DNA of 64,000 nucleotides. Source: Lachnospiraceae bacterium (GTDB lineage Bacteria; Bacillota; Clostridia; Lachnospirales; Lachnospiraceae). A program made the position numbers and the translations under genes. The notes below the pieces were generated by a model, which was not told where the DNA came from, did no database searches, and saw only the letters and a program-made list of their open reading frames with translations. The stretch covers positions 62,001 to 126,000 of the forward strand of contig JAGBMJ010000062.1 in the NCBI GenBank assembly GCA_017634975.1, read 5' to 3'. Of the stretch, positions 34,525 through 50,913 are shown piece after piece (the stretch's first letter is position 1; every line of letters starts with the position of its first letter).

Positions 34525-34560
34525 TTTAGAAAATAGTAAACAAATTTAGGAAATACTAAA
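34525..34560 (+). promoter_or_regulatory. Tandem arabinan-regulon operator, site 1
   Basis: TTTAGAAAATAGTAAA and TTTAGGAAATACTAAA lie exactly 20 bp apart, two helical turns, in a 460-base divergent spacer. The proximal copy ends 7 bases before a -35 box. The same element in the same position occurs at 37469-37484, and a variant at 42921-42936. Placement upstream of -35 suggests an activator. The rest of the spacer is AT-rich without ORFs. Confidence 0.7.
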
Positions 34561-34596: not shown

Positions 34597-34651
34597 TTAC
34601 TTATAATGCAGTAACCGAAAACTATTATGAGAAAAAAGAGAGGTGGCAGCC

Positions 34652-35629
34652 ATGCAGAACCGGAACGGCAGAAGGACAGCATACAATACCGCATTGATCG
34701 AACAGAGAGCAGATCCTTATGTGTTGCAGGCAGAGGACGGGACGTATTATTTTACGGCATCGGTACCGGATTATGATCGTATCGTATTGCGCCATGCAGA
34801 TACATTGACGGGACTGGCGGATGCGGAGGAGACGGTTATCTGGGTGCGGCATGAAGAGGGGAATATGAGCCGGCATATCTGGGCGCCGGAGCTGCATTAT
34901 ATCGATGGCAGATGGTACATCTATTTTGCCGCATCCAGACAGGATGATATCTGGAGACTGCGTCCGTATATCCTGTGCTGCGAAGGGCAGGATCCGATGA
35001 AGGATGCCTGGAAGGAGCTGGGCAAGATCCAGCGCAGTGATGATGATATCTATTCCTTCCGTGCCTTTTCTCTGGACGCGACGGTATTTCAGAACAAGGG
35101 AAAATGGTATTTTGTCTGGGCGGAGAAAGTGAGTGTGGGTATTCAGATCTCCAATCTGTATATTGCGGAGATGGAGAGTCCGGTCAAGTTAAAGACGGCG
35201 CAGGTATTGCTTACCACGCCGGACTATGCCTGGGAACGCAGGGATATCTGGGTAAATGAAGGCCCGGCCGTTCTGCGGCACAATGGGCGTATTTATCTGA
35301 CTTATTCGGCAAGTGCGACCGGCGAATGCTATTGTATGGGTATGCTGAGCATCGGTGAGGAGGAAGATCTGCTCGATCCGCGCGCCTGGAAAAAGGAAAA
35401 GCAGCCGGTATTGGCTTCCGACCGGGAAAAGGGATTCTACGGACCCGGGCATAACTGCTTTACCAAACTGCCAGACGGTACGGATGTATGCATTTATCAT
35501 GCGAGAACGTATGCCGAGATCGAGGGGGATCCGCTTTACGATCCCAACCGTCACGCATTTGCCATGAAAGTGGAATGGGACGAGAACGGTGACCCGGTGT
35601 TTGATTACCGAAACAATCTGGCGCAGTGA
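34652..35629 (+). CDS. GH43 glycosidase, likely alpha-L-arabinofuranosidase
   Basis: A 325-residue five-bladed propeller enzyme of family GH43, without signal peptide, so cytosolic. The catalytic triad is visible: base Asp21 in RADPYV, modulator Asp142 in SLDATVF, acid Glu203 in VNEGPAVL. IWAPELHYIDGRWYIYFAAS is a family hallmark, and YGPGHN carries the conserved His. It probably trims imported arabino-oligosaccharides. The ATG at 34652 is 8 bases after GAGAGG; a GTG three codons earlier is less likely. It is first of a plus-strand operon with the secreted arabinanase 50 bases behind. Confidence 0.88.
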   Translation: MQNRNGRRTAYNTALIEQRADPYVLQAEDGTYYFTASVPDYDRIVLRHADTLTGLADAEETVIWVRHEEGNMSRHIWAPELHYIDGRWYIYFAASRQDDIWRLRPYILCCEGQDPMKDAWKELGKIQRSDDDIYSFRAFSLDATVFQNKGKWYFVWAEKVSVGIQISNLYIAEMESPVKLKTAQVLLTTPDYAWERRDIWVNEGPAVLRHNGRIYLTYSASATGECYCMGMLSIGEEEDLLDPRAWKKEKQPVLASDREKGFYGPGHNCFTKLPDGTDVCIYHARTYAEIEGDPLYDPNRHAFAMKVEWDENGDPVFDYRNNLAQ

Positions 35630-35679: not shown

Positions 35680-37221
35680 ATGCGGGAGCGGACAGGATGG
35701 CGGAAAAACGGGATCCGGTATGCGGGAGCGGCCGGCATACTCGGATTGCTTTTGTGCGGATGCAATACAGGGGAGGCGACAGCTCTGCAGGAGCGTGTGG
35801 AGACACCTGTTTTGGAGGCACCTATGGAAATCACGATAAAAACCGGAAACTATAAAAACGGTATTTCCTGCCATGATCCGCAGATCCTGTATGCAAACGG
35901 CACCTACTATATGACAGGTTCGCATCAGGTGCTGGCAAAGTCGCAGGACCTGAAGGAGTGGCAGTATAACGGCAATAAGATGTTCTCCAATATCTACAGC
36001 GGCGATCTGCCGGCGTTTGCCTACGTGGGCAAGAACGATCAGGGGGACTATTCGGTCTGGGCATCCAATCTGTATTACAACGAAACGATGGGAAAGTATC
36101 TGATGTATTTCTGCACCAGTTCCACCTATATCAAATCCACTCTGGCGCTGGCGGTGTCAGATACGCCGGACGGACCGTATACCTATACGGATACCCTGTT
36201 GTATTCCGGATTTGAAACGTCCACGGTAGATCAGACGGATGTAAAGGCGGTGCTGGGAGAAGATGCGGACATCGACCGGTATTTTAAGTATGGCGGATAT
36301 GATAACAAAAAATGGCCGAACTGCATCGATCCGGCTATTATTGAAGACACGGACGGAAAAACCTGGATGATCTACGGGTCATGGTCGGGCGGATTGTTTT
36401 TGCTTCAGATCGATCCGGCGACAGGACTGCCGATCCATCCGGAAGCGGATGAGGCAAACGGAGTGGATCCGTATTTCGGTTATCATCTGATCGGCGGCGG
36501 TCATCATGCGTGCGAGGGGCCGTATCTGACCTATTCCCCGGAGACCGGGTACTACTATCTGTTTGCGTCTTTTGGCGGGCTGAACCGTGAAGAAGGCTAT
36601 CAGATCCGGCAGTTCCGCAGCGCGTCGATCACCGGACCGTATTTGGATGCGGCAGGGCAGCTGATGGGAGATCAGGAAAACTATATGAGCTACGGACTCA
36701 AAATGATGGGAAATTATAAACTTCCCAGTCTGGAGACGGCCTATATGGCGCCGGGCGGTCAGTCGGTATTTACCGGAGCAGACGGAGATACCTATCTGGT
36801 CTATCATCAGCGTTTTGATCAGGGGACGGAATATCATGAGCCCCGGGTGCACAAGATCTTTATGAACCGGGATGGATGGTATGTTGCAGCGCCGTTTGAA
36901 TACCAGGGTGAGAAGCTTTCGGAGAGCGGCTATGATACGGCAGGGATCCGCGGAACGTTCTATGTGCTCGATCATGAACAGGATGTGGGAAATCTGATCC
37001 ATACGGCAGAGGAATGCAGCTTCGAAAACGGTGTGATCCGCGGTGCATTTGAAGGCAGTTATGAAGTGGCGGAAGGCAGCTGCGATATCCGCATCACGAT
37101 CCATGGGAAAGAGTATTGCGGTGTGATCGTGGAGATGACCGATGAGGCAGGCAATGATACCCTTTGCATCACGGCGGCCGGTGCGGACAACCGTAGCATC
37201 TGGGCAGTGCAGTACCGGTAA
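35680..37221 (+). CDS. GH43 arabinan endo-1,5-alpha-L-arabinosidase, lipoprotein
   Basis: A 513-residue cell-surface enzyme that cuts arabinan chains. The signal peptide ends in the lipobox GLLLCGC (Cys28). The propeller has base Asp66 in SCHDPQ, modulator Asp217 in NCIDPAI and acid Glu279 in HHACEGPYL. The last about 110 residues form the lipocalin-like GH43 C-terminal domain. It is paralogous to the enzyme part of the 1093-residue fusion at 43043 (shared GLFLLQIDPATGL-like, GPYLTY...TGYYYLFASFG segments). GGGAGGATAAGGG is the ribosome site. It is followed by a strong terminator. Confidence 0.9.
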   Translation: MRERTGWRKNGIRYAGAAGILGLLLCGCNTGEATALQERVETPVLEAPMEITIKTGNYKNGISCHDPQILYANGTYYMTGSHQVLAKSQDLKEWQYNGNKMFSNIYSGDLPAFAYVGKNDQGDYSVWASNLYYNETMGKYLMYFCTSSTYIKSTLALAVSDTPDGPYTYTDTLLYSGFETSTVDQTDVKAVLGEDADIDRYFKYGGYDNKKWPNCIDPAIIEDTDGKTWMIYGSWSGGLFLLQIDPATGLPIHPEADEANGVDPYFGYHLIGGGHHACEGPYLTYSPETGYYYLFASFGGLNREEGYQIRQFRSASITGPYLDAAGQLMGDQENYMSYGLKMMGNYKLPSLETAYMAPGGQSVFTGADGDTYLVYHQRFDQGTEYHEPRVHKIFMNRDGWYVAAPFEYQGEKLSESGYDTAGIRGTFYVLDHEQDVGNLIHTAEECSFENGVIRGAFEGSYEVAEGSCDIRITIHGKEYCGVIVEMTDEAGNDTLCITAAGADNRSIWAVQYR

Positions 37222-37448: not shown

Positions 37449-37484
37449 TTACAAAAGTATTAAAATAGTTTAGTAAATACTAAA
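37449..37484 (+). promoter_or_regulatory. Arabinan-regulon operator, site 2
   Basis: TTTAGTAAATACTAAA, a near-perfect palindrome, ends 7 bases before the -35 box. A weaker match, TTACAAAAGTATTAAA, lies 20 bp upstream. The geometry is identical to the site at 34525-34560. Confidence 0.7.
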
Positions 37485-37520: not shown

Positions 37521-37582
37521 AGAATTATCAAAAACCGGTGCAAAGTAAGTTTGCACACCAGATTATTCAGGAGGAAAATGAA

Positions 37583-39064
37583 ATGAAGAAGAGATTGTTG
37601 GCATTATCTTCGGCATTGATGCTTACCGCCACCATGATCGGTTGCGGCAACATTGCTACCGTAGAAGAAACCGGCGAAGCCGAGCCTGTTGCGGCACAGA
37701 CAGGGACCGATGGCGGCGCAGCGACACCGGACAGCGGATCCAGTGCAGATTCCCTGACCGGTAACGGGGACAAGACGATCAAGGTATTCCTGTATATGCA
37801 GGAGCATGAAAAAGAGATCTACAAGGGGCTGGTAGAACAGTTCGTGGCAGACCATAAGGATGAGATCAAGGAAGTAAAGTTTGAGATCACTACACAGGAC
37901 GAGTATAATCAGAAGATGATCGCAAACATGACCGCAGGCGATCTTCCCGATGTGTTCTATGTAGGACCGGCAGCTGTCCGCTCTTATGTAGACAACGGTT
38001 ATGTACTTCCGCTGGATTCCTATGTGGACAGTGCAACGATCGATAAGATCTGGGGTACCACGCAGACGATCTACCGTTACGACGGCAAGAATGTGGGAAG
38101 CGGTTCCCTGTATGCTCTGCCGAAGGATCTTTCCTGCTTTGCATTTGCGTACAACCAGGATCTGTTCGATGCGGCAGGTCTGGAGTATCCGGATCCGAAC
38201 AAGCCGTATACCTATGACGAGTTTATCGAAGTATGCGAGAAGCTGACCATCGATAAGGATGGCGACGGCGAGATCGATCAGTGGGGCGTTGCCAATGCCG
38301 ATCAGTTCGGTATGACACCGTATCTGTACAGCAACGGCGTAAAGTTCTTAAATGATGATATGACAAAGGTAAATGTTGCAAACAATCCGGCAATGGAAAG
38401 AGCGCTCACCTTCTATACCGACCTGACACTGAACGGTCTGACACCGTCTGTAGATCAGGATACGGCACTTGGCGGTTACCAGAGATGGCTGGATGGCCAG
38501 ATCGGTTTCTATGCCTGCGGCACCTGGGATGTGGCAGCGTTTATGGATCCGAACACCTTCCCGTATAAGTGGAATCTGTGCGGCTGGCCGGTAGGACCGG
38601 ATGGTGACGGCAGATCACATACCTGGATGGGCTCCGTAGGTTACTGTGTTTCCAAGAATACCGAAAATCCGGATCTGTGCGCAGAGCTGATCGCACGGCT
38701 CTCCACCAGTGAAGAGGGACAGAAGGCCGTATCCGGTATCACGACCGGCAACTCCATCCAGCTCCCGAATATCGTGGATCTGGCTTATGGTGAATTCAAA
38801 ACTGCGGTAGCAGACGGTACCGTACCGTATGCATCCAACGTAGATGTGATCTTTGGTTACTTTGACAGCAACGATCATTATGCGGCAGCACTTCAGGAAA
38901 CCGACTATACCTACAACGGTGAGTGGTTCGATCCGTTCTGGCAGGGTGTTTCCAATATCAAGCGCGGCAATATCTCCGTGCAGGAATTCCTGCAGCAGGT
39001 AGAGCCGGAGATGCAGACTGCACTGGATAATGCGATCGAACTGCAGAATTCCGCTACAAACTGA
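37583..39064 (+). CDS. Sugar ABC transporter substrate-binding lipoprotein
   Basis: A 493-residue CUT1-type extracellular solute-binding protein. Lipobox TMIGCGN follows the signal peptide (MKKRLLALSSALMLTATM), then an Ala/Asp/Gly linker. The mature part has IKVFLYMQEHEKEIYKGLVEQF, MTAGDLPDVFYVGPAAV, and YALPKDLSCFAFAYNQDLFDAAGLEYP, all typical of family 1 binding proteins. Between two GH43 genes and the operator shared with them, it most likely binds arabino-oligosaccharides. AGGAGGAAA precedes the ATG; a longer frame from 37538 is rejected. Confidence 0.9.
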   Translation: MKKRLLALSSALMLTATMIGCGNIATVEETGEAEPVAAQTGTDGGAATPDSGSSADSLTGNGDKTIKVFLYMQEHEKEIYKGLVEQFVADHKDEIKEVKFEITTQDEYNQKMIANMTAGDLPDVFYVGPAAVRSYVDNGYVLPLDSYVDSATIDKIWGTTQTIYRYDGKNVGSGSLYALPKDLSCFAFAYNQDLFDAAGLEYPDPNKPYTYDEFIEVCEKLTIDKDGDGEIDQWGVANADQFGMTPYLYSNGVKFLNDDMTKVNVANNPAMERALTFYTDLTLNGLTPSVDQDTALGGYQRWLDGQIGFYACGTWDVAAFMDPNTFPYKWNLCGWPVGPDGDGRSHTWMGSVGYCVSKNTENPDLCAELIARLSTSEEGQKAVSGITTGNSIQLPNIVDLAYGEFKTAVADGTVPYASNVDVIFGYFDSNDHYAAALQETDYTYNGEWFDPFWQGVSNIKRGNISVQEFLQQVEPEMQTALDNAIELQNSATN

Positions 39065-39134: not shown

Positions 39135-40061
39135 ATGGCAAGAAGAAAACAAAAAAAGGTGAAGGTAAAGCTGTCGCAGATGGCAAAACGGGAGGAACGA
39201 TGGGCGTGGCTGTTCATTGTGGCACCTTTTCTGGGCTTCATGCTTTTTATGGCATATCCGATCGTGTTTGCGCTGATCGCAAGTATGAGCCGCTGGACCG
39301 GACTCAATTCTCTTTGGGGAAACATGGCCGGGCTGCGAAATTATAAAGAGATCCTCTCGGATGTCAAATTCTGGAGAGCGATGGGAACCACGATCATCTA
39401 TATGATCGGTATTCCGATCGGTATGATCCTGGGTCTGACTTTGGCGATGGGACTGAACCGTCTGAACAAGAGCCGCAGGGTATTTATGACGATGTACTAT
39501 GTACCGGTGGTTTCTTCCCTGGTAGCGGTATCCATCCTGTGGGCGTGGGTATTCAACTATGACTATGGCCTGTTAAATTCTATCTTTAAAGTACTGACCG
39601 GAAAGCATGGTCCGAACTGGCTGGGGGATGAAACGATGATCAAGATCTCTATGATCATCTTTATGACCTGGAAAGGTCTGGGAAGCTCCATTATCCTGTA
39701 TCTGGCCGGTTTGCAGAGTATTCCGAAAGACTATTACGAGGCAGCGATGATCGACGGTGCCAATGCGTGGGAAAAATTCAAAGCCATCACGTTACCTCTG
39801 ATCTCGCCGGTTACGTTTTACATATTGATCACCAGTCTGATCGGCGGTTTCCAGGTGTTTGTAGAGGTACAGGTCATGGCGGCAAACGGCGGACCGAATT
39901 ACAGTGCTGCTACCGTAGTATTCTATCTGTATGATAAAGCGTTCAAGAACGGTCAGCTCGGTTACGGAAGTGCGGTAGCCGTGATCCTGGCGGTCATCAT
40001 CTTTATCATTACGGCGCTGAACTTCTACGGACAGAACAAATGGGTCAAGACCATAGATTAA
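39135..40061 (+). CDS. Sugar ABC transporter permease 1
   Basis: Six-helix inner-membrane subunit of a CUT1 importer (UgpA/MalF type). A basic N-terminus (MARRKQKKVKVKLSQMAKREER) is followed by hydrophobic segments. The cytoplasmic EAA loop, which contacts the ATPase, is YYEAAMIDGANAWEKFKAITLPLISP. 308 residues. GAGGGAAAC lies before the ATG. No ATPase gene is in this operon; CUT1 systems often use a shared MsmX-like ATPase encoded elsewhere. Confidence 0.92.
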   Translation: MARRKQKKVKVKLSQMAKREERWAWLFIVAPFLGFMLFMAYPIVFALIASMSRWTGLNSLWGNMAGLRNYKEILSDVKFWRAMGTTIIYMIGIPIGMILGLTLAMGLNRLNKSRRVFMTMYYVPVVSSLVAVSILWAWVFNYDYGLLNSIFKVLTGKHGPNWLGDETMIKISMIIFMTWKGLGSSIILYLAGLQSIPKDYYEAAMIDGANAWEKFKAITLPLISPVTFYILITSLIGGFQVFVEVQVMAANGGPNYSAATVVFYLYDKAFKNGQLGYGSAVAVILAVIIFIITALNFYGQNKWVKTID

Positions 40062-40074
40062 GGAGGTGGGAAGC

Positions 40075-40947
40075 GTGGCTGAAATAAAGGTAAAAACCTT
40101 AAATGAAAAAAAGAAAGTAAACAGCAAAAAGGCTGCGGAAATCGTTATTTTTATCCTGCTGGCCTGCGGCGCGGCGATCATGGTGTTCCCGCTGATCTAT
40201 ATGGTGGCCACTTCGTTTATGACAAAGAACCAGATCTTATCCGGCAAACTGTCGATCTTTCCGGATCCGATCCTGATCGGAAAATATTCGCAGGTGCTCA
40301 AGAAAGGTGAGTTTATCAGCGGTATCTTTAATACGATCAAAGTGGAGATCCCGGTGCTGCTCATCGGTGGATTTACTTCTTCCCTGGCGGCATTTGCGTT
40401 TGCCAAGATGGAGTTTCGCGGTAAAACGGCTCTGTTCCTGGCATTGCTGGCAACGATCATGATCCCCTTTGCGGTGGTTATGATCCCGCAGTACGTATTG
40501 TTTACCAAGCTGAAATGGACCAATTCCCTGCTCCCGCTGATCATCCCGGGATGTTTCGGAAATGTGAGCATGATCTTTTTCCTGCGGCAGAACCTCTACA
40601 GCATCCCTAAGGATCTGATGGAGGCAGCCAAACTGGACGGATGTAACTATTTTATGACATACTGGAAGATCTTCCTTCCGCTGATGAAGGGAGCACTCGG
40701 TACCCAGCTGATGCTGTGGTTTATGGGGATCTGGAATGATTACCTGGCACCGACCATCTTCCTGCGTGACGAGAAGACCTGGACCCTGCAGGTGGTGATC
40801 CGGTCCTTCAACTCCTATTATGCGATCCAGAGCGATTATGCTTTGATCATGGCGGCGTCCGTTATTGCAATGCTGCCAACCTTACTGCTGTTCTTTATCT
40901 TCCAGCGCGTGATCATTGAATCGATCGCGATCAGCGGTATCAAATAA
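40075..40947 (+). CDS. Sugar ABC transporter permease 2
   Basis: Second permease (UgpE/MalG type), with six predicted helices and the EAA loop LMEAAKLDGCNYFMTYWKIFLPLMKG. The GTG at 40075 lies 8 bases after AGGAGG, better than the in-frame GTG that overlaps this site. 290 residues. It ends in IAISGIK, a typical MalG-like end. It forms the heterodimer pore with the upstream permease. Confidence 0.92.
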   Translation: MAEIKVKTLNEKKKVNSKKAAEIVIFILLACGAAIMVFPLIYMVATSFMTKNQILSGKLSIFPDPILIGKYSQVLKKGEFISGIFNTIKVEIPVLLIGGFTSSLAAFAFAKMEFRGKTALFLALLATIMIPFAVVMIPQYVLFTKLKWTNSLLPLIIPGCFGNVSMIFFLRQNLYSIPKDLMEAAKLDGCNYFMTYWKIFLPLMKGALGTQLMLWFMGIWNDYLAPTIFLRDEKTWTLQVVIRSFNSYYAIQSDYALIMAASVIAMLPTLLLFFIFQRVIIESIAISGIK

Positions 40948-41113: not shown

Positions 41114-41761
41114 ATGTCTTACGATAATCCGGTCATACGATTTTTGAATAAGTTAACGGATCTGATCTTTTTGAACTTTTTGTTTTTGCTTTGTTCCCTT
41201 CCGATCGTGACGATGGGAGCGGCACTGACGGCCATGTATGCGGTCAATCTGCGTTCGGTCCGGGAGGGAGACGGCTATGTGGCGAAACGTTTCTTTAAAG
41301 CATTTAAAGAAAACTTCATGCAGGCGACGGCGGCCTGGCTGATGGTTCTGCTTGCTGCGGGCATCCTGTTTCTGGATATCCGTTTCTGGCAGGCAAGTGG
41401 TATCGGCGGTATGGCCCAAATGATGCTGTTGCTTTCCGGGATCCTGGCGCTGATCCTGTGGATGATCTCGCTTTGGGTGTTTCCGGTGATCGCCAAGATG
41501 CGGGACAGACTGATGGTGCAGATCGTCAATGCTGCCAAAATGACTTTTGCGTTTTTTCTGCCGCATACACTCGTCTGTATGATCTTATGTGCAGGTGCTG
41601 CTTATCTGGCGACGATCAGCGTGAGTGTCTTGATGCTGATGGCGGTATTCGGGATCGCATTCATTAACTGGATCTGCTGTTTCTTTTTCTACAAGGGATT
41701 TGCCAGAGTCATAAAAGAAGAACCTATCGGGGAAGAGGATTATCTCTATCCGCACGGATAG
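41114..41761 (+). CDS. DUF624 (YesL-like) membrane protein
   Basis: A 215-residue membrane protein with about five hydrophobic segments. NPVIRFLNKLTDLIFLNFLFLLCSLPIVTMGAALTAMY is the family's defining N-terminus. DUF624 proteins sit beside CUT1 sugar importers throughout Bacillota; their role is unknown, possibly transporter assembly. An internal stretch WMISLWVFPVIAKM is also typical. It has its own start after GGAAGGT, and a TATACT box lies about 75 bases upstream, inside a CTATAC/GTATAG inverted repeat. Confidence 0.88.
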   Translation: MSYDNPVIRFLNKLTDLIFLNFLFLLCSLPIVTMGAALTAMYAVNLRSVREGDGYVAKRFFKAFKENFMQATAAWLMVLLAAGILFLDIRFWQASGIGGMAQMMLLLSGILALILWMISLWVFPVIAKMRDRLMVQIVNAAKMTFAFFLPHTLVCMILCAGAAYLATISVSVLMLMAVFGIAFINWICCFFFYKGFARVIKEEPIGEEDYLYPHG

Positions 41762-41818: not shown

Positions 41819-42736
41819 TTATTTTTCGGGCGAGTAACTGATACTTACTTTAATGTCCTGCGCATAATTGCCAAAAGTGCTGCCGAAGATGGTCAGGCCG
41901 CCGATGTGTGCGGCGTCGTCCTTGATTTCCATCCGGAAGGTAAATTTGCTGTTGATGTTGCTCTTAAATTGTTCAATGGTGACATCCGAGATTTTCAGGC
42001 CATCAATATAGGTGCCGGTTTTGTTGATCACCAGCAGTTTTAAAAGGCCGTACTGATTCCAGTTTGGGAACCACCAGTCCGGTGTAAAGATACCGCGTAC
42101 ATCACCGAAATCCCCGGGTGAGGTCCAGGTGCCCAGCTCGATGCCGTTAAGGGAAAAGGTGATGTCGGAAGGCCAGTTGCTGTTGATGCCGGGGGCTTCC
42201 GAAGAAAGCTCTGCCGAGATCATGATCTGTGTGATCTCCTGCAGGGACGGGATGAAGTTCGGGATCTCGTATTCCACGAAACCGCGGGTAAACCAGAGAA
42301 TGTCGGCATTGTAGTGGTCGGGGTGCGCAAAGTAGCGTGTGTCGTCTACTTCACCGATCAGGGCAGAAGAGGTGGAAAGCCCGCAGGTCGGGTATACTTT
42401 GTAATCGGAATAGTGTCCGACCTTTAAACTGGTTGTATAGACGTTCTGGTCGACTTCTTCGGAGTTCAGTTCGATCAGGACTTTGTCCATGGTCAGCGTG
42501 CAGATCTTCTGGTTTCCGTGCCCCTGAGAATCATTGGACGTGGTGATCACGCCGCACGATTCGAGTTTTTTGATATGATTGGTGATCGCACCGTTGGTGA
42601 TCTTCAGCTCCCGCGCGATCTCATTCATATTCATATGCTTGTTTTTCAGTAAAAGCTTGATGATGTCAATGCGGACATCGGAGCCCAATGCCTTAAACAG
42701 CTCTACCGCATTATCCAGGGATGTGATGTGTTGCAT
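41819..42736 (-). CDS. Winged-helix (ArsR-like) regulator with large C-terminal sensor domain
   Basis: A 305-residue transcription factor. The N-terminus is an ArsR-type winged helix: DNAVELFKALGSDVRIDIIKLLLK, MNMNEIARELKITNGAITNHIKKLESCGVI. The rest (about 85-305) is a beta-rich domain of unknown family (IGEVDDTRYFAHPDHYNADILWFTRGFVEYEIPN, WPSDITFSLNGIELGTWTSPGDFG) that may bind a sugar. It carries no ArsR metal-site cysteines. The ATG at 42736 has GGAG 8 bases upstream; an upstream TTG would add 19 residues. Encoded among the arabinan genes, it is the best candidate to bind the shared operator. Confidence 0.82.
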   Translation of the reverse strand: MQHITSLDNAVELFKALGSDVRIDIIKLLLKNKHMNMNEIARELKITNGAITNHIKKLESCGVITTSNDSQGHGNQKICTLTMDKVLIELNSEEVDQNVYTTSLKVGHYSDYKVYPTCGLSTSSALIGEVDDTRYFAHPDHYNADILWFTRGFVEYEIPNFIPSLQEITQIMISAELSSEAPGINSNWPSDITFSLNGIELGTWTSPGDFGDVRGIFTPDWWFPNWNQYGLLKLLVINKTGTYIDGLKISDVTIEQFKSNINSKFTFRMEIKDDAAHIGGLTIFGSTFGNYAQDIKVSISYSPEK

Positions 42737-42792
42737 AAACAGCTTCTCCGATAGTAAAATTATTTCCTGTTTTTTGTAAGGATCTATATACA

Positions 42793-42821
42793 AATATAGT
42801 GAAAAACGGGGGGACGGTCAA
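42793..42821 (-). promoter_or_regulatory. Promoter of the winged-helix regulator
   Basis: On the minus strand TTGACC, 17 bases, TATATT. It gives a leader of about 50 bases. Confidence 0.65.
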
Positions 42822-42943: not shown

Positions 42944-42972
42944 TTGAAATCTATGAAAAAAACGTATATAAT
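42944..42972 (+). promoter_or_regulatory. Promoter of the GGDEF-EAL-LamG-GH43 gene
   Basis: TTGAAA, 17 bases, perfect TATAAT, 70 bases before the ATG. Confidence 0.7.
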
Positions 42973-43042
42973 TGAATAAAAACTAAATTAGATTATATGA
43001 AATTAAAATAAAATGTGACGCAGCGTTCTTTGGGGAGGGCGT

Positions 43043-46000
43043 ATGGATCGTGATCACAATACGGAAAAAGAAAATTACGATTATCTGACCGGTTTATATA
43101 ACCGGAAGGGTATGTACGAATTGTGGAATGACAGGATCTCTGCTCAGAGATCTGTACAGGTGCTGTTTCTGGATCTGGATAATTTCAAAAGCGTAAATGA
43201 TATATACGGGCATAAGATCGGAGACCGGACTTTGATACGTACCGGGGAGATTCTGGTACAGAGTGTGCGGCAGACGGATCTGGTGATCCGTCTTGGCGGG
43301 GATGAGTTTGTTATTATGATTCCCGGAGAAAAGAAACGGGAAGATCTGCAGAGAATGGCGGACCGGCTTCTGGGGGATCTGCAGGCGGAGGGGACGCAGG
43401 ACAAGGCTTTTGGTGTGATCTCGGCCAGCATCGGGATCGTCTGCAATGCCGATACGTCGGAAGGGATCGACAAACTGCTTTCCTACAGCGATACGGCAAT
43501 GTATTATGCCAAAAATGCAGGAAAAAACCGCTATATCTTTTTTGACGATTATGCTGACCGGATCCGGGTGGAGCGTGAGATCGAGAGTACCGTGGAAACC
43601 GCGCTGGAGGAAGGCAGGTTCCATATGCTGTACTATCCGGTGATCCATCTGCAGAATGCAAAGATCATGCGCAGCGTTGCTGTGGCTGTCTGGGAAAAGC
43701 AAAACGGCGAGATCCTGTACCGGTCGCAGTATGAACAGATATTGGAAAAAAGCGGATTTATCCGGAAAGTGGATATATTTGCGTTTGAGCAGCTATGCAG
43801 GGATTATGCAAAGATCCGACAGGCAGCAGGAGGGGAAAGCGTGGTCGGAATACGCTTATCCCGACTGACACTGGAAAAAAATGCCGTGCAGGTTCTGCGG
43901 GGTATAACGCAGAAATACGGCGTTCCGGAAGAAGCATTGGAATTGCTGGTAGACGAATGTTTTCTTGGGGGACGCAGTACGGAACTGCTGCGGAAAAGCA
44001 TAAACGAATTGAAAGAAGCCGGTTTTTCATTAGGTCTGATGAATTTCGGAGAGGACTTTTCCTCCTTCCGTTTTTTGGAAAATCTGCCGGTCTCAACGGT
44101 CTTTTTTGACAGTGAATACGTGATGAATGAAAAGGAAGAGGAGCGTAAAAATATTCTCTATACCCTTTTTCATCTGACACGGAATATGCGTTTGCTTAGT
44201 GTGGGACAGGGTGTCAGGAACGCAGAGGATGCAGTGTTTCTTTTGAAAAACGGCTGCGACGGGGCAACCGGTCCTTTGTATGGAGAGCGCCGCTCTTTAG
44301 AGGAATATACGGAATATCTTTCCGGGATCGTCGAGCAGGAAAATATGTACCATTACGATTTTCTGCACGATTATGCAACAACGCAGGGGGCGTATCCCGG
44401 CAGACCGGTTGGAGGCGGCGTGGAACGGATCCCCGGGATATCGGATGTACGGGGCGGTGTGCGTTTCGGCGGCGGCCCGGTAAATACAAATCTGCTGGAA
44501 TTTCCGGGAGAACTCCTTACGAATGGCAGCTTCAGCATTACGATGTGGGTACGGCCGAGGGAAGTGCAGGACTGGATCAGTGTTTTTTATGCACGGATGC
44601 AGAATGGTTTTATCTCATTTATGCCTTCAGTAAGCGGCAATGTATGCATGTTCCGCATGCACGCGGATGGCGATGTACCGTGGACGGATGTGATGACCGA
44701 TTCGCTCCCGATCGGTAAATGGAGCTATATTGTGCTGGTTTATGATGCCTTCAGCGATATGATACGTCTGTTTGTGGATGGTGAACTGGCCGGTATGAAA
44801 GGATCGGTGCCGAAGATCGGGGAGAGTTCCCGGATCTGTGTCGGGGGGGACTGCTATCAGGTCTCGTACCGGGGGGATGTGTCAGCGCTCAGCTTTTATG
44901 GCAGTGCACTGACGGAGGAAGAGGTCCGCAGGCATTATCTGCAGTACAAGGAAGAGGCTGGTTTTTCCGGGGATGAAGAGGCGGATATACAGACAGAGTA
45001 TGTGACGCATGATCCGGCGATCTTTGAAGATCCTGTCTCCGGGAAGTTTTATATCTATGGTACCCATGCAAAAGGCATGGTTTCCGGGGATCTGGAACAC
45101 TGGGAATCGCTGCCGAAGATCGTGACGGTACCGGAGGAGGCAACGGCCTGGACCGGATCGACGGATGTGTGGGCGCCGGATATCGTGAAAGTTGGAGAAG
45201 AATATCGTCTGTATTGTTCCAATTCGAGCTGGGGAGTACAGCAATCCTGCATCTTTCTGGCAGTATCGGACCGGGCGGAAGGCCCTTTTCTGCCGCGGGG
45301 GGTAGTTCTGAAAACCGATGATACCCTGGATGTGAACGGGATCGATGCCAATATCATTACAGATCATGAGACGGGAGAGCAGTATATGCTCTACGGCTCC
45401 TTTTGGGGAGGGGTTCATCTGCTCCCGCTGGAAAAAGAAAGCGGCCTGGCAAGAGACCGTGGTGCTGACGGGAACGGTGTGGGCAGTCTGCGGCTTACGG
45501 CGGGATATAAGGAGGGAATGCAGATCGGTGATCTTTCACTGGAGGAGCAGGAACGCCGGCGCGGGATCTGTCTGGCCAGACGTCCTCTTTGGACGGACGG
45601 GGCGATCGAGGGGCCGTATATGGTCTATTGTAAGGAAACCGGTTACTATTATCTGTTTGTTTCCTTTGGTTCCCTGCAAAGTGATTATAATATCCGGATC
45701 GGGCGCAGCCGCAGGGTGTCCGGACCGTTTCTGGATTATTTCGGAAAAGATCTGGCAGATATCGACGATCCGGACTGCAGCCGCGGTCTGATGATCAGTG
45801 CCGGTTATCGCTGGCTGACGGGGATGCCGTATATGGGTCCGGGGCATAACTCCGTTCTGCAAAGAAAGAACGGGGAGATCTTTATGGTGTTTCATATCCG
45901 GCGGATGCGTTATCTGGAACAGGAATGCGGTAACGGACTTTTGCAGATCCGCCGCCTGTATCCTACGCCGGATGGCTGGCTGATCGCCGGTGCACAGCCA

Positions 46001-46324
46001 TATGCAAGAGAAGCCTACCCGATCGCAGAACCGGCTATGATCCCGGGAGCGTACGAGCGGATCGAGCTGCGGCCTTCGATCCCACAGGGCATCATGCAGG
46101 CCAATCCCCTTATGCTCTGCGAGGATGGACGTCTGGAATGCTGTTCGGTTCGCGGACGATGGAGACAGACCGATGCCGATACGCTGGAGTTTACCTATGG
46201 TCCGATCACCGAATATGTCCATATAGAGTACGGACTGGATCACGATATCAACCGTACCACGGTATTGCTGACCGGACTGAACAGCCGCGGCATCTGTACC
46301 TGGGCAAAGAAACAGTTGCAGTAA
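43043..46324 (+). CDS. GGDEF-EAL-LamG-GH43 fusion: diguanylate cyclase joined to arabinanase
   Basis: One uninterrupted 1093-residue protein. Residues about 10-170: GGDEF domain (YDYLTGLYNRKGM, LFLDLDNFKSVNDIYGHKIGD) with intact GGDEF (85-89) and the RxxD inhibitory site R76-D79 at the canonical distance. About 175-430: EAL-like domain without the EAL motif (AVAVWEK in its place) and with MNFGEDFSS for DDFGTGYSS, so probably not an active phosphodiesterase. About 465-635: LamG/concanavalin-like domain (GSFSITMWVRPREVQDW, LFVDGELAG). About 650-985: GH43 with base Asp657 (HDPAI), modulator Asp768 (NGIDANI), acid Glu856 (IEGPYM) and GPGHNS. About 990-1090: GH43 C-terminal domain. No signal peptide or membrane segment. 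Start supported by GGGGAGGG. It has the arabinan operator. Confidence 0.9.
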   Translation: MDRDHNTEKENYDYLTGLYNRKGMYELWNDRISAQRSVQVLFLDLDNFKSVNDIYGHKIGDRTLIRTGEILVQSVRQTDLVIRLGGDEFVIMIPGEKKREDLQRMADRLLGDLQAEGTQDKAFGVISASIGIVCNADTSEGIDKLLSYSDTAMYYAKNAGKNRYIFFDDYADRIRVEREIESTVETALEEGRFHMLYYPVIHLQNAKIMRSVAVAVWEKQNGEILYRSQYEQILEKSGFIRKVDIFAFEQLCRDYAKIRQAAGGESVVGIRLSRLTLEKNAVQVLRGITQKYGVPEEALELLVDECFLGGRSTELLRKSINELKEAGFSLGLMNFGEDFSSFRFLENLPVSTVFFDSEYVMNEKEEERKNILYTLFHLTRNMRLLSVGQGVRNAEDAVFLLKNGCDGATGPLYGERRSLEEYTEYLSGIVEQENMYHYDFLHDYATTQGAYPGRPVGGGVERIPGISDVRGGVRFGGGPVNTNLLEFPGELLTNGSFSITMWVRPREVQDWISVFYARMQNGFISFMPSVSGNVCMFRMHADGDVPWTDVMTDSLPIGKWSYIVLVYDAFSDMIRLFVDGELAGMKGSVPKIGESSRICVGGDCYQVSYRGDVSALSFYGSALTEEEVRRHYLQYKEEAGFSGDEEADIQTEYVTHDPAIFEDPVSGKFYIYGTHAKGMVSGDLEHWESLPKIVTVPEEATAWTGSTDVWAPDIVKVGEEYRLYCSNSSWGVQQSCIFLAVSDRAEGPFLPRGVVLKTDDTLDVNGIDANIITDHETGEQYMLYGSFWGGVHLLPLEKESGLARDRGADGNGVGSLRLTAGYKEGMQIGDLSLEEQERRRGICLARRPLWTDGAIEGPYMVYCKETGYYYLFVSFGSLQSDYNIRIGRSRRVSGPFLDYFGKDLADIDDPDCSRGLMISAGYRWLTGMPYMGPGHNSVLQRKNGEIFMVFHIRRMRYLEQECGNGLLQIRRLYPTPDGWLIAGAQPYAREAYPIAEPAMIPGAYERIELRPSIPQGIMQANPLMLCEDGRLECCSVRGRWRQTDADTLEFTYGPITEYVHIEYGLDHDINRTTVLLTGLNSRGICTWAKKQLQ

Positions 46325-46572: not shown

Positions 46573-47409
46573 TTGGACAAGAAAGCACTGATGATCGCTG
46601 CAAACAAAGTAAGACAGGGTATCATTACGGGTGTTTATAACGCAAAGTGCGGACATCCGGGCGGATCTCTCTCAGCGGCGGAGATCTTTACCTACCTGTA
46701 TTTTGAGGAGATGAATATCGATCCGAAGAATCCGAAGATGGAGGATCGTGACCGTTTCGTTCTTTCCAAAGGACATGTGGCACCGGGACTGTATTCCACA
46801 CTGGCAAACCGCGGATTCTTTGATGTAGAGGCATTGAAGACCCTGCGTCACACAGGCTCCTTCCTGCAGGGACATCCGGATATGAAGGGTGTACCGGGCG
46901 TGGATATGTCTTCCGGATCTCTGGGACAGGGACTTTCCGTAGCAGTCGGTATGGCGCTGGCAGCAAGACTGCAGAACAAGGACTATCGTGTATACTGTCT
47001 GACCGGTGACGGTGAGATCGAAGAGGGCCAGATCTGGGAAGCTGCGATGTTTGCAGGTCACAGAAAGCTGGACAATCTGGTAGTTTTCGTAGATAACAAT
47101 AACCTGCAGATCGACGGTTCTCTGGATGAGGTATGTTCTCCGAATCCGATCGACAAGAAGTTTGAAGCATTCAACTTCTATGTACAGGTGATCAACGGTA
47201 ACGATTTCGACGAGATCGCGCAGGCACTGAAGAATGCCAGAGAGCATAAAGGACAGCCGGCAGCTATCGTTGCCAAGACCCTGAAGGGCAAAGGCGTATC
47301 CTATATGGAGAACTCCTGTGGCTGGCATGGTAAGGCACCGAATGCAGAGGAGTATGAGATTGCAATGAAGGAACTGAAAGAGGAGGAAGCAGCGTTATGT
47401 CAGATGTAA
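46573..47409 (+). CDS. Transketolase, N-terminal subunit
   Basis: Split transketolase half that binds thiamine diphosphate pyrophosphate and Mg. GHPGGSLSAAEI, DRFVLSKGHVAPGLYSTLA and the TPP motif GDGEIEEGQIWEAAMFAGHRKLDNLVVFVDNN are plain. 278 residues. It starts with TTG after AAGGAAGGAG. The enzyme moves two-carbon units between pentose and other sugar phosphates, which is where arabinose carbon goes after AraD. The 248-base upstream gap has a TATAAT at 46432 but no convincing -35 box. It overlaps the partner gene by 13 bases. Confidence 0.94.
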   Translation: MDKKALMIAANKVRQGIITGVYNAKCGHPGGSLSAAEIFTYLYFEEMNIDPKNPKMEDRDRFVLSKGHVAPGLYSTLANRGFFDVEALKTLRHTGSFLQGHPDMKGVPGVDMSSGSLGQGLSVAVGMALAARLQNKDYRVYCLTGDGEIEEGQIWEAAMFAGHRKLDNLVVFVDNNNLQIDGSLDEVCSPNPIDKKFEAFNFYVQVINGNDFDEIAQALKNAREHKGQPAAIVAKTLKGKGVSYMENSCGWHGKAPNAEEYEIAMKELKEEEAALCQM

Positions 47410-48335
47410 AGAAGATCGCAACCAGAGATAGTTACGGTAATGCGCTGGCTGAGCTGGGCGCAGAGTTCCCGAACCTTTATGTGCTGGATGCCGATCTGGC
47501 AGCAGCAACCAAGACCAGTACTTTTAAGAAAGCTTTTCCGGAGCGTCATATCGACTGCGGTATCGCAGAGGCAAATATGACCGGTATCGCAGCAGGTCTT
47601 GCTACCTGCGGTATCGTTCCGTTTATCAGCAGTTTTGCTATGTTTGCGGCAGGCCGTAACTTTGAGCAGGTACGCAACTCCATCGGTTATCCGCACCTGA
47701 ATGTCAAGATCGGTGCAACACACGCAGGTATCTCCGTTGGTGAGGACGGTGCGAGCCACCAGTGCAACGAAGATATGGCTCTGATGCGCTCCATCCCGGG
47801 CATGGTCGTGATCTGCCCGAGCGATGATGTGGAAGCAAAGGCTGCTGTTCGCGCAGCATACGAATATAATGGTCCGGTATATCTGCGTTTCGGCCGCTTC
47901 GGTGTGCCCGTGATCAATGACAATGCAGATTATAAGTTCGAGATCGGTAAGGGTATCACATTAAAAGACGGTTCCGATATCACCATCGTAGCAACCGGTC
48001 TGTGTGTATCCCAGGCTCTGGAAGCAGCAGAGACGCTGGCAGCAGAAGGCGTAAGCGCACGCGTGATCAACATCCACACCGTAAAGCCGCTGGATGAAGA
48101 GCTGATCATCAAGGCTGCAAAAGAGACGAAGATGCTCTTTACCGTAGAGGAACATTCCATCATCGGGGGCTTAGGCAGCGCTGTTTGTGAATGCCTGGCA
48201 GAGAATCATCCGACAAAGGTAGTACGTATCGGTATGCGTGACCGTTTCGGCGAGTCCGGTCCGGCTGCAGAGCTGATCCACAAGTATGGTCTGGATGCGG
48301 AAGGCATCGTAAAGACCGTAAAAGAGAATATTTAA
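47397..48335 (+). CDS. Transketolase, C-terminal subunit
   Basis: Second half of the split enzyme, with the pyrimidine-binding and C-terminal domains. The N-terminus ATRDSYGNALAELG, then DCGIAEANMTGIAAGLA with the catalytic Glu, and HAGISVGEDGASHQCNEDMALMRSIPGM are family marks. VEEHSIIGGLGSAV and FGESG lie near the end. 312 residues. It is translationally coupled to the N-terminal subunit. A terminator follows 18 bases after the stop. Confidence 0.94.
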   Translation: MSDVKKIATRDSYGNALAELGAEFPNLYVLDADLAAATKTSTFKKAFPERHIDCGIAEANMTGIAAGLATCGIVPFISSFAMFAAGRNFEQVRNSIGYPHLNVKIGATHAGISVGEDGASHQCNEDMALMRSIPGMVVICPSDDVEAKAAVRAAYEYNGPVYLRFGRFGVPVINDNADYKFEIGKGITLKDGSDITIVATGLCVSQALEAAETLAAEGVSARVINIHTVKPLDEELIIKAAKETKMLFTVEEHSIIGGLGSAVCECLAENHPTKVVRIGMRDRFGESGPAAELIHKYGLDAEGIVKTVKENI

Positions 48336-48386: not shown

Positions 48387-48498
48387 ATGGCTTGTAAGAA
48401 TACAAGCCATAAAACCCTCCGGGGGATGCGCACTCGCGCGAATGGAATATGTTGCTATCGCAACCGCGCTCGGCGCCAGCGTTCTGTAGACAGAACGC
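48387..48498. other. Two further hairpins in the kinase leader region
   Basis: ATGGCTTGTA/TACAAGCCAT (48387-48410, AGAA loop) and GCGTTCTGT/ACAGAACGC (48479-48498, AG centre) are both perfect. The sequence between is GC-rich with no gene. They may be mRNA structures or old insertion traces. Confidence 0.5.
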
Positions 48499-48509
48499 TT
48501 ATTTACAGG

Positions 48510-48523
48510 TGAAAACGCTTCCA
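48510..48523 (+). promoter_or_regulatory. Candidate CcpA cre site
   Basis: TGAAAACGCTTCCA matches the cre consensus TGWAANCGNTNWCA at all but one position. It lies 19 bases before the kinase ATG, where bound CcpA would block transcription when preferred sugars are present. Confidence 0.5.
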
Positions 48524-48541
48524 AAAAAGAGGAGAAAGAAT

Positions 48542-50125
48542 ATGAAAGATATCATTGAAAGCGGAAAGACGGCACTCGGTATCGAGTTTGGCTCCACCAG
48601 GATCAAGGCGGTCCTGATCGATGAAAAGGGTGCGACACTGGCATCCGGCAGCCATGGCTGGGAAAACCAGTACGAAAACGGCATATGGACCTATAGTCTG
48701 GATATGATCTGGAACGGTCTGCAGGATGCTTATAAAGACCTGAAGGCAGATGTGCAGAAGCAGTATGGCGTGAGCCTTAAGAAGATCGGTTCCATCGGTT
48801 TCTCCGCTATGATGCATGGCTATATGGCGTTTGATAAAGAAGGCGAGCTGCTGGTGCCGTTCCGTACCTGGCGTAACACGACCACCGAAGAGGCGGCATC
48901 GAAACTGACCAAGGCGCTCGGCTTCAATATCCCGCAGCGCTGGAGCATTTCCCATCTGTACCAGGCGATCCTGAATAAGGAAGAGCATGTGAAAGATATC
49001 ACCTTCTTCACCACACTGGCGGGCTATATCCACTGGAAACTGACCGGTGAGAAGGTATTGGGTGTGGGCGATGCATCGGGTATGTTCCCGATCGACAGTA
49101 CGACCGGAGATTACAATAAGGCTTATGTGGCGAAATTCGACGAGATGATCGCGCCGTGCGGTTTTGCATGGAAGCTGGAAGATATCCTGCCGAAGTCACT
49201 CTCTGCAGGAGAGGCAGCAGGTACGCTGACGGCGGAAGGCGCAAAGCTGCTGGATGTGAGCGGTGAGCTGGAAGCCGGCATCCCGTTGTGTCCGCCGGAA
49301 GGAGATGCAGGTACCGGTATGGTAGCGACCAACAGTGTGGCGGTACGCACCGGTAATGTATCCGCAGGTACTTCCGTATTTGCGATGATCGTTATGGAAA
49401 AAGCGCTGAAGGGTGTACATGAAGAGATCGATGTGGTGACTACGCCGGAAGGTAAGGATGTGGCGATGGTACACTGCAATAACTGTACTTCCGAGATCAA
49501 TGCGTGGGCAAAACTGTTTGCGCAGTATTCCGAAGCGGTCGGACAGCCGGTGGATATGGACAAGCTTTATACCACGATGTTTACCGCAACCATGAGCGGT
49601 GCACCGGACTGCGGCGGCCTGATGGGCTTCAATTATTTCTCCGGAGAGCCGGTAACAGGCTTTGCCGAGGGACGTCCGGTCTTTGCACGTTCCGTGAATG
49701 CAGATTTCAGCTTTGCAAACTTTATGCGTCTGCAGCTGTTCTCCGCACTCAGCACTTTGAAGTATGGTATGGACATCCTGTTTAAGGAAGAAGACGTGAA
49801 GGTAGACTGCCTGTACGGTCACGGCGGATACTTCAAGACGAAGGAAGCCGGACAGCGCATCCTCTCTGCAGCAGTCAACGGTCCGGTGACCGTAATGGAG
49901 ACGGCAGGCGAAGGCGGCGCATGGGGTATTGCTTTGCTTGCACTGTATCTGACGAAGAAGAGCGGCTCCCTTTCCGATTTCTTAAAGAACGAGATCTTTG
50001 CCGGACAGGAAGGCAGCACCGTGACCGCTACTGCGGAAGAGGTGGCAGGCTTCGACCGGTTTATGCAGGCCTTTGTAAAGGCGCTGCCTCTGGAGAAAGC
50101 AGCGATCGAAAGTATTGCGGAATAA
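48542..50125 (+). CDS. FGGY-family pentulose kinase, likely L-ribulokinase
   Basis: Phosphorylates a ketopentose. The FGGY fold shows [17 protein letters not shown] (phosphate 1), [37 protein letters not shown], and the C-terminal [28 protein letters not shown] (adenosine loop). The 527 residues fit xylulokinase/ribulokinase. Pairing with araD directly downstream makes L-ribulose the most likely substrate. I chose the ATG at 48542 after GAGGAGA; a longer frame starting at 48449 runs through hairpins and the cre-like site and is rejected. Confidence 0.82.
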
Positions 50126-50217: not shown

Positions 50218-50913
50218 ATGTTAGAAGAACTCAAAGAAAAAGTATATTTAGCAAATATGGAACTCCCCAAGCGTCACCTGGTGACCTATACCTGGGGCAA
50301 TGTCAGCCAGATCGACCGGGCTTCCGGCCTGTTTGTCATCAAGCCGAGCGGTGTGGATTACGAGACGATGACACCGGAAGATATGGTCGTAATGGATCTG
50401 GACGGCAATCGTGTGGAAGGCCGTTACAAGCCGTCTTCCGATACACCGACGCATCTGGAACTGTACAAAAAGTACGAAGGCATTGGCGGCGTGGTACATA
50501 CCCATTCTCCGGAAGCAACCTCGTGGGCACAGGCCGGTCGCAGCATCCCGCTGTACGGTACGACACATGCAGATTATTTCTTCGGTGAGATCCCCTGCGC
50601 CAGAAGCCTGACTCCGGAAGAGATCAATGGTGCTTACGAAACCAATACCGGTCTGGTGATCATCGAGACTTTTGAGAAGCTGGGGATCAACCCGCTCTAT
50701 ACACCGGGCGTATTGTGCACCAACCACGGCCCGTTCACCTGGGGCAAGGATGCTTTTGAAGCCGTACACAATGCGGTGGTACTGGAAGAAGTAGCCAAGA
50801 TGGCGCTCAAGACAGAGCTGATCAATCCGCAGGTAAAACCGGCACCGGACTGCATCCGCGACAAGCATTTCTTCCGTAAGCATGGAGAGAATGCTTATTA
50901 CGGACAGAACTGA
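50218..50913 (+). CDS. araD: L-ribulose-5-phosphate 4-epimerase
   Basis: Converts L-ribulose-5-phosphate to D-xylulose-5-phosphate, joining arabinose use to the pentose phosphate pathway. This is a class II aldolase fold: [31 protein letters not shown], the zinc-binding [14 protein letters not shown], and the third His in [22 protein letters not shown]. 231 residues, as in E. coli AraD. GAAAGGA precedes the ATG. No araA or araC-type gene is present in the window. Confidence 0.95.

Follow-up and report, generated by a model that had tools for sequence, protein, structure and literature searches.

A Lachnospiraceae protein joining GGDEF, degenerate EAL, LamG and GH43 domains: a candidate intracellular sensor of arabinan fragments

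The occurrence of a cyclase-type GGDEF domain and an arabinanase-type GH43 domain on one polypeptide raises the question of what the two could do for each other. To our knowledge, the signals that feed c-di-GMP in fibre-degrading members of the gut-dwelling family Lachnospiraceae are largely open. The gene considered here lies on the forward strand at positions 43043–46324 of a 64-kb stretch of Lachnospiraceae DNA (the window). It starts with ATG and contains 1093 codons with no internal stop, in agreement with the original prediction of a single uninterrupted frame. The proposed Pfam search places all five domains above their curated cut-offs, namely GGDEF (residues 11–163, 43073–43531, E 1.4e-38), EAL (residues 184–414, 43592–44284, E 2.1e-30), Laminin_G_3 (residues 483–628, E 1.4e-18) within a LamG or concanavalin-like region delimited by Pfam, profile and model (residues 425–643, 44315–44971), GH43 (about residues 655–985, 45005–45997), matched in two stretches of which the best covers residues 655–790 (E 2.4e-29), and GH43_C (residues 987–1088, 46001–46306, E 5.8e-7), which is the C-terminal domain predicted to follow the GH43. 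No strongly hydrophobic segment is present in the protein (highest mean 19-residue hydropathy 1.15). The full-length model has a pTM of 0.47, so contacts and arrangement of the domains are not readable from it.

The proposed search for full-architecture homologues in other Lachnospiraceae revealed the same layout at six more loci, all from other assemblies and spread over two genera or more: three congeners at 74%, G074 at 49–50%, L110 (1096 aa) and L109, which is cut by a contig end. The GGDEF-EAL-LamG part alone is matched strongly at least 21 times, by proteins from 16 of 397 Lachnospiraceae genomes (best seven candidates per genome scored; matches weaker than 1e-40, the next best being 2e-20, excluded on E-value). 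Outside the family, the samples of the order and class contain none of like strength. Scanning the named genomes with the single full-length fusion protein gave no match, while the LamG alignment found 17 loci, 14 of which carry the GGDEF-EAL-LamG family; three weak LamG loci (L120–L122) were kept out of the counts. The fusion belongs to one clade of this family (clade A), and a second clade has an intact EAL domain (8–10 of 10 positions kept). Clade A is represented by 16 loci in view: the join is present at 7, and of the 9 unfused loci 7 have an adjoining GH43 gene and 2 have none in view. Neighbouring GH43 genes were sought by phmmer with the fusion's own GH43, which misses the short GH43 type, so gene starts were read as well in calling L118 and L090 "none in view". 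Over the whole family, a separate GH43 lies within 10 kb at no fewer than 8 of 21 loci, scored by hand, where a random-placement model expects 2.4 (P 1.4e-3). The other 13 loci have none among the matches listed, and the ligand there may therefore be another glycan or none.

The GH43 of the fusion was predicted to possess three catalytic acids, and Asp657, Asp768 and Glu856 are indeed present; together with His935, they are kept in 7/7 fused proteins, and we take the four to be the catalytic and metal-site residues. From its homologues and its locus, this domain is predicted to cleave alpha-1,5-arabinan. A 32-residue insert (about residues 808–839, 45464–45559), delimited in the GH43 alignment, is found in all seven fused proteins, whereas 13 of 17 standalone cytosolic GH43s lack it and the remaining four have a shorter, different one; in the full-length model, residues 806–827 of this area have pLDDT below 50. 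The fused GH43s cluster with four cytosolic GH43s whose genes adjoin those of unfused cyclases (support 100/99), the pattern of a "Rosetta stone" fusion. The trees of GGDEF-EAL-LamG and of GH43 are both compatible with a single origin of the join. The former left out L109, the G129:C22 copy (stops), the G312:C131 copy (contig-cut) and L106–L108, L111, L115 and L116, taken as same as G016, G014, G030, G074, G129 and G402; the latter used 12 hand-chosen standalone loci.

The LamG-like assignment was not only borne out but also sharpened, as the best solved relative of the LamG profile is an arabinan-binding module, Domain4 of the arabinanase AbnA (E 4e-18; next other protein 6.3e-6). According to PMC9110388, Domain4 binds arabinan with Kd values of 7.7 and 11.1 uM, and its crystal held arabinopentaose. 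Two family members searched singly match it at E 4.6e-9 and 7.3e-9. All three control LamG domains match Domain4 too (E 7.1e-8, 8.8e-29 and 1.6e-11), so the kinship by itself is no proof of ligand; two of these three score better with another structure. The region is modelled as almost all-beta (pLDDT 91.6), and 14 of its columns are invariant in 22/22 aligned proteins, W547 and D549 being invariant throughout.

Judged by gene content, the surroundings of the fusion are an arabinan-type locus. Upstream on the same strand lie a short GH43 (34643–35629, by family match), probably an exo-acting arabinosidase and by eye lacking a signal peptide, and a GH43 with GH43_C (35680–37221), probably a secreted endo-arabinanase given its lipobox-like N-terminus, read by eye. 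These are followed by an ABC solute-binding protein (37538–39064), an ABC permease (39135–40061), a second permease read by eye (40066–40947) and a DUF624 (YesL-like) protein (41114–41761). An ArsR-type winged-helix regulator with HTH_24 and HTH_5 matches (41819–42793, reverse strand) is divergent from the fusion. Downstream, again on the forward strand, are split transketolase genes (46573–48335; first part by scan, second by eye), an FGGY-family sugar kinase (48449–50125) and a member of the class II aldolase family, presumably AraD-like (50218–50913); the assignments without further remark are domain matches. Of 35 genomes of the genus, the four that encode the secreted arabinanase are also the four with the fusion. 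No arabinan genes accompany the G074 fusion in the 19.9 kb read.

A promoter-like TTGAAA-17-TATAAT (11/12) precedes the fusion at 42944–42972 (+) as a consensus match only, such sites numbering 8 in the region against 5.9 expected. It is followed at 42972–42987 (+) by an operator-like box with 3 mismatches to TTTAGTAAATACTAAA. This pattern was derived from a palindrome in front of the importer genes (37469–37484, +), and the pattern search also places two boxes (2 and 1 mismatches; 34525–34560, +) and a third (3 mismatches; 34589, +) upstream of the short GH43. In total, the window contains 7 matches at 5 places against 0.46 expected, a count attained by 0 of 100 shuffles. Every match sits before the short GH43, the importer or the fusion, the importer place being the pattern's own source. 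A 3-mismatch box also precedes the fusion in G014, G016 and G030, and none was found before the unfused cyclases or before the fusions of G074 and L110. Operator-like boxes connect the fusion gene with the arabinan importer and with one hydrolase, the ArsR-type regulator being the candidate binder. No known RNA element was detected in the 64-kb window by Rfam at the gathering threshold.

The reading that we prefer, with a probability of roughly 0.53, is that the fusion is a cytosolic, arabinan-dedicated diguanylate cyclase which responds to arabino-oligosaccharides and carries its own ligand-removing hydrolase. Arabinan would be cut outside the cell by the secreted GH43, and the resulting arabino-oligosaccharides would be carried in by the ABC importer; importer, hydrolases and fusion would be switched jointly by the ArsR-type regulator. 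Inside the cell, the oligosaccharide would be bound by the LamG domain (as well as by the cleft of the GH43), and binding would alter the pairing of GGDEF domains and raise c-di-GMP, the degenerate EAL domain serving as a structural linker rather than a phosphodiesterase. The attached GH43 would then cut the bound oligosaccharide, so the signal would fade as the sugar is used.

A serious competitor, though an unlikely one on balance, is that cyclase and arabinanase are independent activities fused for co-expression or placement without allostery, in which case the cyclase may merely report that the locus is on. The occurrence of unfused pairs as neighbouring genes, the boxes that the fusion gene has in common with its locus and the low confidence of the modelled LamG–GH43 segment (residues 646–655) are all consistent with this. 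However, every unfused cyclase aligned retains the LamG domain, and its retention, its kinship to a sugar-binding module and its 14 invariant columns are easier to reconcile with a response to ligand than with simple co-expression.

The original prediction had offered two directions of control, sugar setting c-di-GMP synthesis or c-di-GMP gating the hydrolase. Comparison favours the former, because most homologues seen have GGDEF-EAL-LamG without GH43 on the chain, because the cyclase site is kept where the EAL site is not, and because an arabinan-binding module is among the relatives of the LamG domain. The GGDEF motif stands at residues 85–89, and all 17 positions of the cyclase site (RxGGDEF, metal aspartates, substrate residues) are intact in the window protein and in 15/15 complete clade-A proteins, fused and unfused; dN/dS of the GGDEF domain is about 0.19 between the window protein and G016. 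For the EAL domain, the phosphodiesterase residues (EAL, N, ExTE, DD, K, EGVE, Q) form a list of 10 positions, defined by the motifs in relative G254, which we assume to be canonical. The window protein keeps 1 of these and the 15 complete clade-A proteins 1–3, which bears out the predicted degeneracy, and an active phosphodiesterase is rejected on residues. Within the near-identical trio G014/G016/G030, EAL dN/dS is 0.37–0.75 on few changes, so EAL constraint is weaker evidence.

Degenerate EAL domains serve as receptors in other proteins, and a reversed control, in which binding of c-di-GMP or GTP by the GGDEF or the degenerate EAL domain gates the arabinanase, would also accommodate the LapD model among the NCBIfam matches (score far below its cut-off) and the RxxD at residues 76–79. 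It is nevertheless improbable, as the canonical EAL positions are nearly all gone and lend no support to the suggested c-di-GMP or GTP sensor, and just 4 of the 21 other aligned proteins carry a GH43 on the same chain. The RxxD itself is present as predicted but is missing from the other 7 of 8 clade proteins compared; it is thus not a conserved part, and a conserved feedback site is rejected. Loss of the EAL residues could also suggest a catalytically dead GGDEF-EAL half that acts as a mere dimer scaffold for a sugar-binding hydrolase, but the intact cyclase positions and the low GGDEF dN/dS make this very improbable. An artificial join of two genes through assembly or contamination, conceivable for a fragmented assembly with an estimated contamination of 7.46%, is refuted by the six fused loci of other assemblies, homologues being found both fused and unfused.

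Returning to the sugar-responsive cyclase, its possible output in the source genome is attachment, because one of the genome's five c-di-GMP-I riboswitches lies some 70 bases upstream of a prepilin-type gene; three PilZ matches are also present. A tentative extension, doubtful but worth considering, is a self-erasing sensor which reads intracellular arabino-oligosaccharides, makes c-di-GMP and destroys its ligand; c-di-GMP would in this way follow the influx of plant polysaccharide and reset once the sugar is gone. The protein would then be the fused end-member of a set of Lachnospiraceae glycan-reading c-di-GMP enzymes with cytosolic relatives of carbohydrate-binding modules. If the proposal is correct, imported polysaccharide would be coupled to a decision on attachment or motility in fibre-degrading Lachnospiraceae, and a relative of carbohydrate-binding modules would have been co-opted for sensing inside the cell. 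Comparison of fused with unfused relatives suggests that the fusion may turn intracellular arabinan fragments into a lifestyle signal, and it offers a candidate ligand, an enzyme and a family with both forms for comparison.

The claim that no system of this layout has been described is not contradicted in the literature searched; PMC5457731, considered because it links GGDEF with glycosidases, concerns a HAMP-GGDEF protein and is unrelated. The GGDEF-EAL core resembles dual-domain enzymes (best solved match "Motility regulator" 4RNF, presumably MorA, E 2.2e-48). In contrast to these, the fusion has no visible membrane segment, a C-terminal LamG and, in the fused form, a hydrolase, and the EAL site is lost in its clade. 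The unfused GGDEF-EAL-LamG proteins (L112–L119, L090 and the EAL-intact clade) share its first three domains but lack GH43 on the chain. AbnA of Geobacillus stearothermophilus (5HO0, 5HON; PMC9110388), an extracellular GH43 arabinanase, shares the GH43, a Domain2 that aligns with the GH43_C part and the concanavalin-like Domain4; however, it is secreted, has another domain order and carries no signalling domains. The LamG-GH43-GH43_C order of the C-terminal half recurs in L082, an arabinanase from another family of the order (non-LamG domains by eye), but a signal-peptide-like N-terminus takes the place of GGDEF-EAL there, whereas the fused GH43 clusters with cytosolic GH43s in a tree without L082. 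The neighbour of the L082 gene looks like one for a solute-binding protein.

The gene at window positions 43043-46324 (+) is a single unbroken open reading frame of 1093 codons with an ATG start. Its product contains GGDEF, EAL, Laminin_G_3, GH43 and GH43_C domains in this order, all over the curated Pfam cut-offs, which bears out the original prediction that a diguanylate cyclase, an EAL domain, a LamG domain and a GH43 enzyme are joined in one protein. Mean hydropathy over 19 residues peaks at only 1.15, a value that gives no sign of a signal peptide or membrane helix, so that all domains should be cytosolic.

The search for homologues of full architecture, proposed with the original prediction, found fused proteins in three congeners, in G074 (same family, other genus) and at two loci from named genomes, L110 and L109; these like-built fusions rule out an assembly artefact. 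Within the genus, a fusion match reaches E 1e-60 or better in 4 of the 35 genomes, including that of the window. The proteins of the other three congeners share 74% identity with the window protein over residues 9-1092 and have an open frame of 1101 codons. The G074 frame is 1093 codons long, with 55% identity in the C-terminal part and 49-50% overall, the L110 protein has 1096 aa, and the L109 frame, truncated by the contig start, has 729 aa. The three congeners are Lachnospiraceae (one from sheep rumen, one from sheep omasum, one without stated source); other named-genome assemblies with matches are Lachnospiraceae (one from roe deer rumen), Roseburia, Butyrivibrio, Clostridium, Bacillus and Clostridiales metagenome assemblies. 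Between the window and the congener G016, dN/dS, taken as the ratio of computed values with synonymous sites near saturation, is ~0.19 for GGDEF, 0.12 for EAL, 0.08 for both LamG and GH43 and 0.04 for GH43_C. Among the near-identical congeners (G014, G016 and G030) it is 0.17-0.25 for the whole protein and 0.37-0.75, from few changes, for the EAL part. The full-length fusion is matched once in the window's genome, where contig pairs C42/C106, C11/C102 and C108/C123 carry matches of equal score, in line with the reported contamination of 7.46%.

The fusion belongs to a wider GGDEF-EAL-LamG family. An alignment search with the LamG region, scoring at most 7 candidates per genome, gave 21 matches at E <1e-40 in 16 of the 397 genomes of the bacterial family (next best 2e-20). 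Outside that family the best match was 4.6e-17 (392 genomes of the order sampled, family members included), and in the class sample (391 genomes) only the window's own genome passed 1e-20. The 21 matches comprise 19 complete proteins, one with stops and one truncated by a contig end. EAL and LamG are present in all 22 aligned proteins (the 19 complete ones and the three congeners); for GGDEF there is no match in G251 and a weak one in G312b. The family tree (29 rows, midpoint root) separates two groups at 100/100 support. Group A (15 complete proteins including that of the window) keeps 17/17 GGDEF positions and 1-3/10 EAL positions, and is therefore predicted to make c-di-GMP only. Group B (14 proteins) keeps 8-10/10 EAL positions; GGDEF or GGDEY is kept in 12 of them, among which G318 has two other changes, and is lost in G251 and G312b. 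A family copy at L100 3307-4728 (G129:C22) has internal stop codons, so some copies decay.

GH43 genes also accompany unfused members. The 16 group A loci in view (the window, L090 and 14 from named genomes) include 7 fused, 7 unfused with an adjoining GH43 gene and two, L118 and L090, with no GH43 gene in view around the unfused cyclase. At L112, L113, L114 and L115 the cyclase gene is convergent with a GH43 gene lacking an evident signal peptide; at L116, L117 and L119 it is followed by one, and L112 and L113 have both arrangements. Six fused rows form one group (100/99) in the GGDEF-EAL-LamG tree and seven (100/100) in the GH43 tree, which fits a single origin of the fusion. The latter seven fall in an 11-row clade (100/99) with four cytosolic GH43s adjoining unfused group A cyclases, which points to a partnership of the two genes that predates their joining. 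A fifth cyclase-neighbour GH43, from a contig-cut G312 locus, is placed elsewhere. The fused GH43s have a 32-residue insert, absent in 13 of 17 standalone cytosolic GH43s and replaced by a shorter, different one in four. Across the whole family, a separate GH43 lies no more than 10 kb away at at least 8 of 21 loci, where 2.4 would be expected (P 1.4e-3; scored by hand among the matches listed and GH43 match counts), and hence the arabinan link, strong in group A, is partial in group B. At L038 351-3001 (G312:C131), one strand encodes in succession the LamG end of a family protein, a 253-aa product that has no Pfam match but looks like part of a GH43, and a GH43 without signal peptide. The EAL-intact members L091 and L092 adjoin a gene that reads, by eye, like phosphoketolase (pentose breakdown).

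The gene content of the window cluster shows an arabinan-type locus. Its upstream part encodes a short GH43, a lipoprotein-like GH43 with GH43_C, a solute-binding protein, permeases, DUF624 and an ArsR-type regulator; the fusion is followed by transketolase, FGGY kinase and a class II aldolase family protein (the second permease and second transketolase part were read by eye). Two further GH43 matches lie near the window end, at 59701-60444 (+) and 62507-63313 (+). The secreted arabinanase and the fusion occur in precisely the same 4 of 35 genus genomes, which counts as one event because these are close relatives. A similar cluster in G402 contains an unfused family protein and, nearby, a methyl-accepting chemotaxis protein in which HAMP and MCPsignal domains are recognised (L047 1937-4030, -).

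A palindromic box, TTTAGTAAATACTAAA, has 7 matches (both strands counted, <=3 mismatches) at five places in the window, against 0.46 expected; 0 of 100 shuffles reach 7. Three places are 5' of the short GH43, one 5' of the fusion and one 5' of the importer, whose promoter is the source of the pattern. Boxes precede the same three genes in G014, and the fusion in G016 and G030. Ten of 18 sources scanned have no box, and L110, L112, L113 and L099 have it before other genes; thus no box precedes the unfused cyclases, nor the G074 and L110 fusions. As a candidate to bind the box, the ArsR-type protein is the obvious choice.

The family LamG profile matches, among solved structures, best with Domain4 (5HON, E 4e-18; next other protein 6.3e-6) of AbnA, the extracellular arabinanase of Geobacillus stearothermophilus. 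Domain4 is reported to hold arabinopentaose in a concave cleft and, as an isolated domain, to bind arabinan (Kd 7.7 and 11.1 uM), and AbnA W758 to touch the catalytic domain in a closed state (PMC9110388). The invariant W547 of the family aligns with W758. All three LamG controls from outside the family also match 5HON. Two, from cellulase-like and GH43-like multidomain proteins (by eye), score better with the S-layer structure 4QVS (3e-13 vs 7.1e-8 and 2.9e-18 vs 1.6e-11 for 5HON), and the third, whose host reads as a LamG-GH43 arabinanase, matches 5HON at 8.8e-29. As a control without 5HON preference reaches 1.6e-11, match strength alone does not support arabinan. The preference for 5HON over 4QVS favours arabinan as ligand: 4e-18 vs 1.2e-4 for the family profile, 7.3e-9 vs 6.4e-3 for L093, and 4.6e-9 for the window LamG, with 4QVS absent at 0.001.

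Cyclases with ligand-binding input domains are already known; new here is a cytosolic relative of a carbohydrate module as cyclase input, with a fused hydrolase. Among the titles and abstract openings listed from a full-text library with a minority of subscription papers and no bioRxiv preprints, nothing concerns this architecture. The observation of the fusion stands: its domain architecture, its conservation, its genomic linkage and the state of its key residues are shown. A broader family and the Rosetta-stone join raise it above mere curiosity. For activity, ligand and coupling our best inference is that imported arabino-oligosaccharides would bind LamG, that bound LamG might shift GGDEF pairing so that c-di-GMP rises, and that GH43 on the same chain would remove the ligand. 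The structure models give no help on coupling: that of the isolated LamG domain is good (pLDDT 91.6, pTM 0.90), but the full chain is not reliably arranged (pLDDT 79.7, pTM 0.47).

The window's genome has five c-di-GMP-I riboswitches and three PilZ matches. One riboswitch ends ~70 bases ahead of a gene whose product carries a prepilin N_methyl motif (L133 7444-8279, G000:C123, -), and the stretch also contains a flagellin gene; for the other four no clear target is in view. Two of these are neighbours at a contig end (L134 2834-3178, G000:C126), where the target gene is out of view. The window also encodes, at 5726-7642 (+), a 638-aa protein joining Peripla_BP_3 (LacI-type binding) to GGDEF, possibly a second sugar-reading cyclase.
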